Shown here piece by piece: positions 2 through 20,569 of a DNA stretch of 20,569 bases (within the stretch, counting starts at the first letter, position 1; every line of letters begins with the position of its first letter). The translations under genes were made by a program, and so were the position numbers. The notes under the pieces were generated by a model. That model searched no databases. It saw only the letters and a list, made by a program, of their open reading frames with translations, and was not told the origin of the DNA. The DNA is from a virus: positions 1-20,569 of the IMG/VR virus record IMGVR_UViG_3300028388_004221, one strand, 5' to 3'.

Positions 2-580
2 GGTCTGCCAGATGAAGACTTCCATATGTTTTTGGAGTATTCGGAAATGGCTGATAAAGTAGACTTCATGAAGCAGGGTAATATTAACTCTCATTCTGGT
101 GTTGCTCTTGCATTAGCACAATCAGTATTCAACGAAGGCTTAGCTGTATTTGCTTCTTTCGTTATGCTTCTTAACTTCCAACGTTTCGGTAAGATGAAAG
201 GCATGGGTACGATTGTAGAATGGTCTATCAGAGACGAAACGCTACATGTACAGGGTAACGCTAAGTTATTCAGAGAGTTCTGTGAAGAGCATCCACGTAT
301 TGTTAATGATGAGTTAAAGTCTAATATCTACCAAATGGCTAAAGATGCTGTTAAGCTTGAAGACAAGTTTATTGAACTAGCATTTAACGGTCATGAGATT
401 CAAGGATTGACTAAGGATGAAGTTAAAACATATATTCGTCATATCGCTGATCGTCGTCTACTTCAACTGGGTCTTAAGCCTAAGTTCAAGCAGAAAGATA
501 ATCCGCTACCTTGGCTCGATTGGGTACTCAATGGTGCATCTCATGATAACTTCTTCGAGAAGCGCGGCTTGCGAAATTAA
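2..580 (+). CDS. nrdB: Ribonucleoside-diphosphate reductase small subunit, C-terminal part (5' end outside window)
   Basis: This is the C-terminal part of a class I ribonucleotide reductase beta subunit, which holds the dimetal/radical cofactor and works with NrdA to make dNTPs for phage replication. The frame is open from base 2 (GLPDEDFH precedes the first ATG at 26), so the gene continues to the left. Visible metal ligands are the Glu in FNEGLAVFASF and the E..H pair in RDETLHVQG, matching Glu204, Glu238 and His241 of E. coli NrdB. The NPLPWLDW segment near the end is typical. Oddity: the protein stops at NFFEKRGLRN. Relatives with an NFFE motif usually continue with a tail carrying the conserved radical-transfer tyrosine, and I see no such Tyr here. 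A 51-aa zinc-ribbon gene follows after 9 bases. Family assignment is secure; the meaning of the short tail is not. Confidence 0.95.
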   Translation, partial: GLPDEDFHMFLEYSEMADKVDFMKQGNINSHSGVALALAQSVFNEGLAVFASFVMLLNFQRFGKMKGMGTIVEWSIRDETLHVQGNAKLFREFCEEHPRIVNDELKSNIYQMAKDAVKLEDKFIELAFNGHEIQGLTKDEVKTYIRHIADRRLLQLGLKPKFKQKDNPLPWLDWVLNGASHDNFFEKRGLRN

Positions 581-589
581 GGCAGCTTA

Positions 590-745
590 ATGGCAGACTA
601 TTACCGGATCCAATGTGAAGAGTGTGATAATGAGTCATTGATGGAGATAGAAACTCTACCTGAGTTTTGTCCGGTATGTGGCAGGAGGGGCTTGGTTGAG
701 CCCCTTTCTGTTGAGCGAGAAGAACTGGACTTCGATGGCGACTAA
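590..745 (+). CDS. 51-aa zinc-ribbon protein
   Basis: A short protein starting MADYYRIQCEEC with two CxxC knuckles: CEEC at residues 9-12 and CPVC at 27-30. This is the layout of a minimal zinc ribbon that could bind one zinc ion, followed by an acidic tail ending DFDGD. The start is supported by AAGG about 8 bases upstream of the ATG, and the gene lies 9 bases after nrdB. A 7-bp GC-rich hairpin (686-705) lies inside its 3' half. Such small zinc-ribbon genes are common in T4-like phages, where most have no known role; nucleic-acid or protein binding is possible but not shown. Confidence 0.75.
   Translation: MADYYRIQCEECDNESLMEIETLPEFCPVCGRRGLVEPLSVEREELDFDGD
684..710 (+). terminator. Terminator-like hairpin inside the zinc-ribbon gene
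   Basis: AGGGGCT (686-692) pairs with AGCCCCT (699-705) across a 6-base loop, and two G-U pairs can extend the stem outward. It is followed by a poor T tract (TTTCTGTT). The geometry fits a weak intrinsic terminator at the end of the nrdB transcript, but it overlaps coding sequence and the T run is interrupted, so termination is uncertain. Confidence 0.35.
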
Positions 746-748
746 ATA
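741..748 (+). promoter_or_regulatory. Possible T4-type late promoter (TAAATA core)
   Basis: ACTAAATA at 741-748 matches 6 of 8 positions of the T4 late promoter TATAAATA. It sits between the terminator-like hairpin and the GIY-YIG gene. A transcript starting about 6-8 bases downstream would begin inside or after the left arm of the start-codon hairpin. Such short AT-rich matches occur by chance, so this rests on context. Confidence 0.35.
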
Positions 749-773
749 CATTCACAGTTGAAGGTGGATGTAT
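746..773 (+). promoter_or_regulatory. Hairpin covering the RBS and start of the GIY-YIG gene
   Basis: ATACATTCAC (746-755) pairs with GTGGATGTAT (764-773), giving 10 bp with one G-U pair and an 8-base loop. The right arm contains the end of the AAGGTGG ribosome-binding site and the first two bases of the start codon at 772. In a transcript reading through from nrdB this would hide the start; a transcript starting inside the left arm would not. T4 I-TevI is known to be controlled in this way. Confidence 0.5.
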
Positions 774-1227
774 GTGGTTATATAATAATAATGTATTTGA
801 TGAAACTCCAGAAGAATATCAAGGCTTTGTCTATATGATAACTGAACTTGATACTGGTATGAAATATATTGGTAAGAAGTTTTTTTGGAAGCCAAAGATA
901 CTTCCAATAACTAAAAAGCGTAAACGTAGAGTTAGAACTAAGGTAGAATCTGATTGGAGAAAATATTTTGGTTCTAACAAAGATGTTCAGCGATTAGTTG
1001 AAGATAAAGGTGCTGATAATTTCAAAAGAGAGATTTTGCATCTCTGTAAGACGAAAGGCGAATGCGCATACTATGAAGCCAAACTTCAGTTTCAGCATGA
1101 TGTGTTATTGAGAGATGATTTCTATAATGGAATTATTCAGTGTAGAATAAATGCATCTCATATTAAGGATTTAGATATGAATGATTCAGACCAATGGCCA
1201 GAATTTCCTATCCAAGATAACCCATAG
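772..1227 (+). CDS. GIY-YIG nuclease-like protein (Seg/homing endonuclease-like)
   Basis: A 151-aa protein with a GIY-YIG-type core: GFVYMIT (residues 18-24) and YIGKKFFW (32-39) form the two-strand signature. They are followed by a basic stretch, the conserved block SDWRKYFGS, and CAYYEAKLQF, whose Glu103 sits where the family's metal-binding Glu is expected. Enzymes of this fold cut DNA; phage members are often free-standing homing endonucleases. Many T4-like marine phages carry a close-looking protein of this size, often annotated only as hypothetical. No separate DNA-binding domain is obvious, so it may be a conserved phage nuclease rather than a homing enzyme. The ATG at 772 has AAGGTGG just upstream but lies in a hairpin. 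The radical SAM gene starts 3 bases after its stop. Confidence 0.65.
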   Translation: MWLYNNNVFDETPEEYQGFVYMITELDTGMKYIGKKFFWKPKILPITKKRKRRVRTKVESDWRKYFGSNKDVQRLVEDKGADNFKREILHLCKTKGECAYYEAKLQFQHDVLLRDDFYNGIIQCRINASHIKDLDMNDSDQWPEFPIQDNP

Positions 1228-1230
1228 ATC

Positions 1231-2196
1231 ATGATAAAAGAATATGTAGATACAGTAAACGTAGACCTTACGGATAAATGTATTTTAAAGTGCTCAAAAT
1301 GTCCTAGAAATTTTCCTGAAACTGATTTAAGTAAGCACGAAGATATTTCTATACAAGACTTCACTAAGTTATGTGATCATTTTGTAAGTATAAGAATTTG
1401 TGGTCAGATGAGCGATCCGATTTACCATCCAGACTTTCTTATTTTATTAGAAATAGCTTTATCTAAATGTAAAAAGATTGATATACACACCAATGGTTAT
1501 GGAAAAAAAAGAAGTTTTTGGGAAAAAGCGTTTAATTTATCTAGGGGAGTTAAAAAATGTCGTTGGAAATTTGCATTAGATGGTCTTCCTGATCAAAGTC
1601 ATATTTACAGAGAAAATCAAGACGGGTTTGAAGTATGGGAAACAATGAAAGCTGGTTCTTTATTAGGAGTTAGAATAGAATGGAATTATATTATTTTTAA
1701 ATATAATCAACATTCTATTAAATCCGCTAAAAAGCTAGCTAAACAACACAACATGGAGTTTTGTCTTGTAAATAGCTCTAGATGGGATGGAGAGGATGAT
1801 CCTTTAAAACCAGATAAAAAAGAGCATTATATTATAAAAAAATCAAAGTATCTTAGAAATAAAAATTACGAAAAAAAGAAAGTTTTAAAGCCAAGATGTA
1901 TGGGATATAATAAGGATCAAATGGCTAGAGCTTATGGATCTCAGAATCTCCTCTTAGGGTGTCGTTTTGCTGATCCTGTTTATCAGCAAGTATCTAATGA
2001 TCGAGCTTGGGATATTATATATAATGATAGCATGAAGTTAAAAAATTTTAATTCTGTTCAAGAGGTTTACGATACACCTAACTGGAAAGAGTTTCAGCGA
2101 AGGTTAATAGAAGAACCTGACAAAGCTCCGGAACTTTGTAAACAGATTTGTAGTCATAGTGATATGAGTAGAAAGGTAGATTATGATATTGATTGA
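1231..2196 (+). CDS. Radical SAM enzyme (cargo block 1)
   Basis: A 321-aa radical SAM protein. The cluster-binding motif CILKCSKC (Cys17, Cys21, Cys24; CX3CX2C) sits near the N-terminus after a beta strand (TVNVDLTDKC), as is standard for the fold. Members use a [4Fe-4S] cluster and S-adenosylmethionine to start radical chemistry. Further cysteines near the C-terminus (PRCMGYN, LLGCRFADP, CKQICSHS) suggest a SPASM/twitch-like auxiliary cluster. Substrate unknown; peptide, sugar or nucleotide modification are all possible. Codon use is AT-rich with many AGA codons, like the glycan island and unlike rnh. The start has no clear Shine-Dalgarno and lies 3 bases after the nuclease gene, so translation may be coupled. 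The 3' end overlaps rnh by 14 bases. Confidence 0.88.
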   Translation: MIKEYVDTVNVDLTDKCILKCSKCPRNFPETDLSKHEDISIQDFTKLCDHFVSIRICGQMSDPIYHPDFLILLEIALSKCKKIDIHTNGYGKKRSFWEKAFNLSRGVKKCRWKFALDGLPDQSHIYRENQDGFEVWETMKAGSLLGVRIEWNYIIFKYNQHSIKSAKKLAKQHNMEFCLVNSSRWDGEDDPLKPDKKEHYIIKKSKYLRNKNYEKKKVLKPRCMGYNKDQMARAYGSQNLLLGCRFADPVYQQVSNDRAWDIIYNDSMKLKNFNSVQEVYDTPNWKEFQRRLIEEPDKAPELCKQICSHSDMSRKVDYDID

Positions 2197-3040
2197 TTAT
2201 AACGGCATAGCAATCTCTAATGTTGTTACGCAAAAATTAGCTATAGACGAAAACTTAATTCGTCATATGATCTTAAATTCTATCAGACTCCATAGACGTA
2301 AGTTTAAAAAAGAGTACGGCGAAGTAGTTATTTGCTGTGACGGTATGAAGAACTGGCGCTTGGATGTCTTTCCTCAATACAAGCATAAGCGACGATCTGA
2401 TCGAAGAGAATCTGATATTGATTGGAAGGAAGTATTTCGTATTACTAATCTCGTTCGAGAAGAACTCAAAGAGAACTTTCCTTATAAAGTCGTAGAAGTA
2501 GACGAGTGTGAAGCTGATGATATTATTGCCCATCTTGCTCTTCGTACTCAGGAGTTCGGACAATACGAAAATGTAATGATCGTATCGGGTGATAAAGATT
2601 TTGCTCAGTTACAAATTCATAAAAACATTAAGCAGTATTCTCCAGTTCAGAATAAGTTTATCAAAGAAGATAACCCCAAGTCTCAGCTTCTTAACCTTGT
2701 TCTGAAAGGTGATACCTCTGATGGTGTACCTAACGTATTATCTGATGACGATGTCTTTGTAGAAGGGCGTAGACAAACTCCTCTCCGTCAAAAGATGATT
2801 GATGAGATAACTACTGCTATTACATCTGGAGCTGACCCAATATTACAAAATTGGTGGAGAAACTTTAATCGTAATAGACGGTTAATTGATTTATCTTGCA
2901 CTCCTCCTCCTATAGTGGAGAAGATTATACATAATTATGATAATCAAGATCAATGGTCTAATAAGGGTAAAGTATTGCCATTTTTGATTCAAAAGAAATG
3001 TAAACTATTAATTCAAGACGTACAGGATTTTATATCATGA
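2183..3040 (+). CDS. rnh: T4 Rnh-like RNase H / 5'-3' exonuclease (FEN family)
   Basis: A 285-aa FEN-family 5' nuclease matching T4 RNase H (305 aa), which removes RNA primers and some adjoining DNA from lagging-strand fragments during phage replication. The acidic metal-binding residues are all visible: Asp5 (LIDYNG), Asp53 (CCDG), Glu110/Asp112/Asp113 (CEADDIIA), Asp137/Asp139 (SGDKDF) and Asp177/Asp180 (GDTSDGVPN). GDTSDGVPN also belongs to the helix-hairpin-helix region. The start ATG overlaps the end of the radical SAM gene, and the end overlaps the next start by ATGA. In T4 rnh also lies in a replication-gene neighbourhood, so this is core phage sequence. It appears complete. Confidence 0.93.
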   Translation: MILIDYNGIAISNVVTQKLAIDENLIRHMILNSIRLHRRKFKKEYGEVVICCDGMKNWRLDVFPQYKHKRRSDRRESDIDWKEVFRITNLVREELKENFPYKVVEVDECEADDIIAHLALRTQEFGQYENVMIVSGDKDFAQLQIHKNIKQYSPVQNKFIKEDNPKSQLLNLVLKGDTSDGVPNVLSDDDVFVEGRRQTPLRQKMIDEITTAITSGADPILQNWWRNFNRNRRLIDLSCTPPPIVEKIIHNYDNQDQWSNKGKVLPFLIQKKCKLLIQDVQDFIS

Positions 3041-20014: not shown

Positions 20015-20412
20015 ACGTTATAGGTGTTTACGGTTCAACTATATACAAACGTAAGCTGGTAGAGCGTATTGTTGACTTCTGTATAAAGAAGTTAACTCCA
20101 AGGATAAAAACGCTTGACATTTGCGTGGAGCTAGACAATAATATGGATACTGCTGATGGTTATTGTTACAGCGTTAACCCTCGGGAGTTTGTATTACAGA
20201 TTGATAATCGTCTTAAAGGAGATGATTTTATTACTGCCGTATGTCATGAGATGGTTCATGTTAAGCAGTATGCTAAGGGTGAATTAACTGAGAAGAGATC
20301 AGCTAAGACCTTTGAAGAATACTTAGAGCTCTGGTACGAAAAAGAAGCATATAAGATGCAAGAAGTATTGCTAGAGCAGTTTAAGGAATCTCGTCGTAGC
20401 ACAGCTGGATAG
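20011..20412 (+). CDS. Second HExxH metalloprotease-like protein; 3' end overlaps tRNA-Arg
   Basis: A 133-aa protein with FITAVCHEMVHVKQYAKGEL (73-92). HEMVH at 79-83 is a zinc HExxH, and LWYEKEAYKMQ (107-117) provides Glu residues at the position of the third ligand in gluzincin-type minimal peptidases. It differs from the SprT-like gene in this third ligand (Glu rather than His). Target unknown. ATGA overlap with the preceding gene. The last 7 codons plus the stop lie inside the tRNA-Arg gene (20390-20412), which is unusual; the protein tail (ESRRSTAG) is thus partly fixed by tRNA structure. Confidence 0.68.
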   Translation: MNVIGVYGSTIYKRKLVERIVDFCIKKLTPRIKTLDICVELDNNMDTADGYCYSVNPREFVLQIDNRLKGDDFITAVCHEMVHVKQYAKGELTEKRSAKTFEEYLELWYEKEAYKMQEVLLEQFKESRRSTAG

Positions 20413-20466
20413 TGCATCTGCCTTCTAAGCAGAGGGTCGCAGGTTCGAGTCCTGCCGACGGGGCCA
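20390..20466 (+). tRNA. tRNA-Arg (anticodon UCU)
   Basis: A full cloverleaf can be folded by eye: acceptor CTCGTCG/CGACGGG (one U-G pair), D stem GCAC/GTGC, anticodon stem TCTGC/GCAGA with loop CTTCTAA (anticodon TCT), T arm GCAGG-TTCGAGT-CCTGC, discriminator G and an encoded CCA. It reads AGA, the Arg codon used heavily in the glycan island. Overlaps the 3' end of the preceding gene by 23 bases. Confidence 0.95.
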
Positions 20467-20470
20467 ATCA

Positions 20471-20544
20471 TCCGGTGTGGTGTAACGGTAACACAGGAGT
20501 CTCCAAAACTCTTAATGGCGGTTCGATTCCGTCCATCGGGGCCA
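20471..20544 (+). tRNA. tRNA-Trp (anticodon CCA)
   Basis: Acceptor TCCGGTG/CATCGGG (two G-U pairs), D stem GTGT/ACAC, anticodon stem GGAGT/ACTCT with loop CTCCAAA (anticodon CCA, U33 present), T arm GGCGG-TTCGATT-CCGTC, discriminator G and encoded CCA. The anticodon gives Trp; the discriminator G agrees. It lies 4 bases after tRNA-Arg. Confidence 0.88.
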
Positions 20545-20547
20545 AAT

Positions 20548-20569
20548 TGGGATATAGCTCAGTTGGTAG
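20548..20569 (+). tRNA. Partial tRNA, 5' end only (identity not determinable)
   Basis: TGGGATA followed by TA-GCTC-AGTTGGTAG has the form of an acceptor 5' strand and the start of a D arm (GCTCAGTTGGTAG is very typical). The window ends before the anticodon. It lies 3 bases after tRNA-Trp, so the tRNA cluster continues beyond the window. Confidence 0.8.

Follow-up and report, generated by a model that had tools for sequence, protein, structure and literature searches.

A putative late-expression switch in front of a SegE-type GIY-YIG gene of marine T4-like phages

Late promoters and hairpins over ribosome binding sites

The combination of a late promoter with a hairpin over the ribosome binding site (RBS) is an established principle. 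It is described for e, soc, I-TevI and segB of T4 and for mobE of Aeromonas phage Aeh1 (PMC2988022, PMC3014915). A sequence-only reading of the DNA studied here proposed I-TevI-like control of a GIY-YIG gene. Its account of I-TevI, in which an RBS hairpin silences early read-through transcripts and the late promoter lies within that hairpin, matches the published ones (PMC2988022, PMC3014915). The window that we analysed is a whole record of 20,569 bases from an uncultured marine T4-like virus, probably a fragment.

I-TevI, in the td intron of T4, resembles the window in having a GIY-YIG gene, a late promoter in the region of the left arm and a hairpin that forms on read-through RNA only. It differs in being intron-encoded, with a control that also protects splicing, whereas the gene in the window is free-standing. 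The homing endonuclease genes segB of T4 and mobE of Aeh1 are free-standing, and each has an RBS hairpin and a late promoter (PMC2988022, PMC3014915). mobE, too, belongs to an nrd locus, and the late consensus of Aeh1, a/gC-TAAATA, is matched by ACTAAATA in the window. However, mobE encodes an HNH enzyme and is embedded in nrdA, and segB is located in a tRNA region. A terminator fused to the element is not described in either review (PMC2988022, PMC3014915). With the leaders of e (lysozyme) and soc, too, the 5' strand of the inhibitory structure is missing from late transcripts, but these are not endonuclease genes; for the e leader, conservation in related phages is predicted (PMC3014915). 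T4 SegE belongs to the same protein family as the window gene, PF19835, but the marine genes lie between nrdB or a Zn-ribbon ORF and RNase H, not at inh/uvsW. The switch mechanism is already known and the window adds another case. The fused and leaderless forms found in relatives may be new variants, and no description of either was found in the literature searched.

The locus, its hairpin and its promoter box

Five genes are consecutive on the + strand (Table 1). nrdB and the Zn-ribbon ORF lie directly upstream of the GIY-YIG gene on the same strand, which on gene order would place it downstream of an early/middle unit, with nrdB as the presumed source of read-through transcription toward it. 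A Zn-ribbon homologue lies directly upstream of the gene in many relatives. Among the marine relatives the gene is usually found before RNase H and often after the Zn-ribbon ORF. In B23, S-SRM01 and ACP17 it runs antisense to the genes on either side, so there it should need its own promoter. The radical-SAM gene that separates GIY-YIG from RNase H in the window is missing at that spot in one relative (L315), and two others (L064 and L066) have a related gene at the same spot.

Table 1. Features of the window around the GIY-YIG gene
Feature	Position	Strand	Basis
nrdB, 3' part	2..580	+	Pfam Ribonuc_red_sm 8.5e-39; open at window's left end
Zn-ribbon-like ORF, 51 aa	590..745	+	weak Zn-ribbon matches, below curated cut-offs
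Terminator-like hairpin, 7 bp then TTTCTGTT	686..705	+	inside Zn-ribbon ORF; interrupted U-tract
Late-promoter-like box ACTAAATA, core TAAATA 743-748	741..748	+	equals Aeh1-type late consensus; TAAATA peak in relatives
RBS hairpin, left arm, ATACATTCAC	746-755	+	fold, comparative pairing
Predicted late transcription start	754	+	last A of TAAATA plus 6; from T4 late-promoter register and TATAAATA-N5-ATG peak
Shine-Dalgarno AAGG	761-764	+	sequence, fold
RBS hairpin, right arm, GTGGATGTAT, into start codon 772-774	764-773	+	fold, pairing probabilities
GIY-YIG gene, SegE-type, free-standing, 151 aa	772..1227	+	PF19835 2.9e-36; phrog_447 2.8e-40; conserved residues
Radical-SAM gene	1231-2196	+	
T4 RNase H-like gene	2183-3040	+	

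The gene behind the hairpin does encode a GIY-YIG protein, as had been claimed. Its product scores 124.9 bits in Pfam SegE_GIY-YIG against a cut-off of 25 (2.9e-36), and the GIY-YIG region residues, one E and one N are invariant across 11 orthologues. A PDB sequence search with the protein gave no useful match. It was also said that such proteins are usually called hypothetical. This holds for some isolate records, but others say GIY-YIG or homing endonuclease and many say 'NAD synthetase', which is also the label of the matching family phrog_447. That label sits on proteins matching the SegE GIY-YIG family and looks like a propagated misannotation. An intron-encoded homing endonuclease, I-TevI proper, is ruled out: Rfam at the gathering threshold matches only two tRNAs in the window and no group I intron, and the neighbouring genes are uninterrupted.

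The claimed 10-bp hairpin over the start region is present. It has one G.U pair (752.767) and a loop at 756-763. RNA 735-790 has a minimum free energy of -16 kcal/mol, whereas its shuffles average -7.5 (z -4.27) and 0 of 200 are as stable. The stem, which was claimed to bury the RBS and start codon, covers the last G of AAGG together with the A and U of the AUG, and the AAG of the Shine-Dalgarno (SD) lies in the loop. When read-through RNA 650-850 is modelled, positions 764-772 are unpaired with a probability of about 0. An RNA beginning at 754 is unable to form the hairpin in the model, and the same positions are partly open only, at about 0.1-0.5. Predicted structure, pairing probabilities and conserved pairing all point to sequestration of the SD and AUG in read-through RNA, as in I-TevI-type control. 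After 773 the window reads GTGGTTATAT, which has no U-tract, and by that measure the 746-773 hairpin is not an intrinsic terminator.

Late promoters of T4 consist of a TATA box of 8 bp that precedes the start by about one turn, and Aeh1 has the consensus form a/gC-TAAATA (PMC2988020). NATAAATA is the late-promoter form in marine T4-like cyanophages (PMC2984593). The TAAATA core that had been proposed is there, and its box has the published Aeh1-type form. The core overlaps the left arm of the RBS hairpin, and its TAA (743-745) is the stop codon of the Zn-ribbon ORF. It must be noted that TAAATA is common by chance: counting both strands, the 20.6-kb window has 28 copies. Since the hexamer is so frequent it is weak evidence alone, and the claim rests on comparative data. 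Upstream of 869 ORFs from 14 sequences TAAATA peaks at -34..-29, with 32 in that 6-nt bin against 4 to 14 in the others, and half of those in the peak take the form TATAAATA. The AC context of the window's copy occurs in 5 of 62 in the genome-wide upstream scan. Elsewhere in these genomes, TATAAATA with a spacer of exactly 5 nt to an ATG that opens at least 80 codons is found 9 times, against 0-3 for each other spacer from 0 to 18, and this supports the +1 register. A late RNA beginning at the predicted +1 would lack 8 of the 10 left-arm bases and so 8 of the 10 pairs. This is the promoter placement of I-TevI-type control, and it bears out the proposal that the spacing would let a late transcript omit the left arm.

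No gp55 or gp33 gene is present in the 20.6-kb fragment that makes up the window. The late sigma and coactivator genes are annotated in the related complete genomes C48C1 and Melnitz-2, and judging from these relatives the window's phage may have late machinery too.

The hairpin at 686-705 is the only strong terminator-like element that our own scan found in the window, and it is kept in the closest relative (L001). The sequence-only reading called it terminator-like, and the 7-bp stem is indeed there. But its U-tract is broken, it sits in coding sequence, and a standard terminator scan of the window does not list it. Everything that the sequence-only reading described is thus present in the DNA.

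Hairpin, fused and leaderless forms in relatives

Four scans gave 243 loci with 92 distinct upstreams of GIY-YIG orthologues. In 39 of the 92 (40 with the window) TAAATA belongs to the left arm of a hairpin and is 27-38 nt upstream of the ATG. Counting from TAAATA onward, 28 of the 40 are distinct. These 28 fold at a mean of -15.0 kcal/mol, which becomes -1.0 when the RNA starts six bases after TAAATA. Truncation at +1 removes a mean of 11.3 of about 13 pairs and leaves a stem of 0-4 bp in every TAAATA hairpin. The arm sequences differ almost completely between phages, yet complementarity is kept, and G.U pairs are frequent, as expected for RNA. Pairing was examined by swapping arms; a MAFFT alignment (A1), with right arms out of register, was left out. 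Native arms pair at a mean of -10.5 kcal/mol against -5.6 when permuted, with 0 of 20,000 permutations doing as well (20 distinct left arms, including two isolates), in a test that takes one row per distinct left arm and in which non-independence by descent is reduced but still present. The sole stem change in L001 turns U.G into U-A. Conservation with compensating changes in relatives was the check suggested beforehand for this hairpin, and it came through with 40 upstreams whose arms differ and remain complementary.

In nearly all of the relatives with a hairpin, the right arm is continued by a U-tract, after which comes the ATG (for example TAAATAGCTCCGAAAGGGGCTATTTTTTTATG in L030). Their hairpin would be a terminator, an RBS mask and a late promoter fused in about 30 bases. 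Every U-tract hairpin before a GIY-YIG gene holds TAAATA. There are 27 terminators in 11 contigs. The 7 with TAAATA are all at the GIY-YIG gene, and the other 20 lack it. TAAATA as a general property of terminators is rejected, since in these contigs only the GIY-YIG gene's terminators have it. Among isolates, BUCT-ZZ01 has the fused terminator form and SynMITS9220M01 a window-like form, and ACG-2014d has TAAATA in the loop. The GIY-YIG gene of BUCT-ZZ01 (L288, about 1383-1839) is unannotated and starts directly after the TAAATA-bearing terminator-like hairpin.

Both the window and L001 lack a U-tract behind the stem. In a grouping based on few columns and with many weak forks, the window's GIY-YIG protein falls in with sequences of the terminator type, so that terminator and RBS-mask functions may have become separated in the window. 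We conjecture that the terminator function is now at the 686-705 hairpin. In pattern searches, further copies of the window's exact form came only from the contig of L001 and one unrelated match. A blastn search against phage isolates did not show the hairpin, the isolates being too distant at the DNA level for it to be seen this way.

Such a hairpin encloses 7 of the 72 TAAATA sites at -42..-18 of other genes; for control hexamers the count is 10 of 386, and for random positions it is 53 of 1011. The promoter-in-hairpin arrangement is not general to late promoters here, but a few other genes have it. Hairpins with TAAATA in the left arm are seen before other genes at G004:1942 and 13538 (L095) and at G009:420 and 12016 (L105). 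The ORFs concerned include ones of 154 aa and 122 aa, and one of 266 aa at C48C1 30147 (L274) that is behind a terminator-like form.

Many GIY-YIG orthologues have no hairpin. TA[ACT]ATA is exactly at -11 in 35 of 53 distinct hairpin-less upstreams and at -10 in 4 more. Examples, both at -13..-6, are CATAAATA in ACP17 (L290) and TATAGATA in C48C1 (L082). An SD-like word occurs in 3 of these 53 compared with 29 of 39 in the hairpin class. Going by position only, the simplest reading is that the late transcript of the hairpin-less class would start at the AUG, that is, it would be leaderless. The TATAAATA-N5-ATG class likewise predicts leaderless late mRNAs. Literature searches on leaderless late mRNA in such phages gave nothing relevant among the listed titles and abstracts. 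Candidate leaderless late genes, with (T)ATAAATA, exactly 5 nt and the ATG of a long ORF, are at G001:2849, G012:73196, G013:35340 and G014:1153. Further ones are at G012:11349 and G013:96588, in Melnitz-2 at 54825, 62263 and 121041, and in C48C1 at 104644. Four candidate positions are annotated starts. G012:73196 and its relatives in G001, G013 and G014 have TATAAATA at the position of the leaderless class.

The proposed switch, its rivals and possible gene mobility

We argue that a two-state late-expression switch, which would keep the GIY-YIG gene silent until late, best explains the element, and we put its probability at roughly three in four. Early and middle transcripts through nrdB and the Zn-ribbon ORF would carry the whole hairpin, which would tie up the start codon and part of the SD so that GIY-YIG is poorly translated. 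Some of these transcripts may stop at the 686-705 hairpin already. Late in infection RNA polymerase with a gp55-type phage late sigma would start at about 754 from ACTAAATA. Without 8 of 10 left-arm bases this RNA would form no hairpin and the enzyme would be made. Structure, conservation with changing arms, promoter motif with its register and gene identity are what we observed; we infer promoter use, timing and the size of repression. Points against the switch are that the start region of late RNA is only partly open in the model, that many orthologues are hairpin-less, that the window has no gp55 or gp33, and that the Zn-ribbon stop adjoins the hairpin, which a ribosome finishing that ORF could melt. 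The comparison, with its conserved pairing, +1 register and late consensus, nonetheless favours the idea of I-TevI-like logic in a different phage.

The strongest rival, and a serious one, is translational coupling, where the hairpin ties GIY-YIG translation to the Zn-ribbon ORF with no late silencing. A ribosome that halts at 743-745 would lie over the left arm and free the start site, and the gene would be expressed along with its neighbour. From the established footprint size, a ribosome terminating at the Zn-ribbon stop would reach about 755. The gap from the upstream stop to TAAATA is 0-10 nt in 38 of 40 upstreams, and in none does the stop fall within the hairpin. However, close stops are expected anyway from genome compactness. 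Coupling also does not explain why TAAATA is in every hairpin, why most relatives have a U-tract, or why there is an SD-less class with a TATA box at -11. We consider it unlikely as the full explanation, but it could coexist with late control and may make early silencing leaky. It is very improbable that the hairpin is mainly an intrinsic terminator of the nrdB/Zn-ribbon transcript whose position at the start codon is incidental. The U-tract at its end in nearly all relatives fits this, but the reading fails for the window itself, where as in L001 the U-tract is absent, and the other terminators in the 11 contigs lack TAAATA.

The inverted repeat could instead act as DNA, for example as an operator to which the endonuclease binds and so represses its own promoter. 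I-TevI offers a precedent, with an operator that it binds and that overlaps the late promoter of its gene (PMC2988022). But arms that are almost wholly different among orthologues and rich in G.U pairs fit RNA pairing and not a shared protein site, which makes this reading highly improbable. A DNA operator or palindrome is rejected as the sole reading; autorepression in addition to the RNA hairpin could occur. The last alternative is chance: in AT-rich DNA, TAAATA would be no more than a stop codon followed by ATA, and the hairpin would be functionless. The many copies of the hexamer in the window, and its TAA serving as a stop codon there, speak for this. Conservation with complementary change largely refutes it, and TAAATA is apart from the upstream stop codon in 31 of 40 upstreams, so we find it scarcely credible. 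For those 31, which have no overlap with the stop, TAAATA as a by-product of the stop codon is rejected.

Returning to the late-expression switch, a broader scenario seems to us evenly balanced between true and false. Marine T4-like phages would wire this endonuclease for late-only expression by interchangeable designs. These are the RBS hairpin with an embedded late promoter seen in the window, a three-in-one terminator with the late promoter in the left arm and often the SD in the right, and a leaderless form with a late box 11 nt before an SD-less AUG; leaderless transcription would also serve some other late genes. The recurrence of several solutions on one gene suggests that early expression of the enzyme is costly. 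The comparison separates the parts that are kept (late box and pairing) from those that vary (arm sequence, U-tract and SD position), and it carries a control circuit long known from T4 over to a marine endonuclease gene that is widespread and often labelled, wrongly, 'NAD synthetase' or hypothetical. The element can be tested in culture, since two cultured phages share it: BUCT-ZZ01, with Synechococcus elongatus PCC 7942 as host, and SynMITS9220M01, with Synechococcus sp. MIT S9220.

Positions of about 500-1226 in the window match 1-785 of L315, where the nrdB end, Zn-ribbon and GIY-YIG are about 91-100% identical against about 61-82% for the other matching genes. Fourfold-degenerate sites are kept at 100% in the nrdB end, 73% in the Zn-ribbon and 78% in GIY-YIG, compared with 38-58% in the other genes. 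In this one genome pair the pattern fits a recent exchange of the nrdB-GIY-YIG tract, as homing with co-conversion would give, and ordinary recombination would give it equally. The raised identity to L315 and the antisense placement in some phages would be compatible with mobility of the gene, whose homing activity is putative. Two tRNA genes are at the window end (20390-20541), and window 20387-20569 is 98.9% identical to L315.
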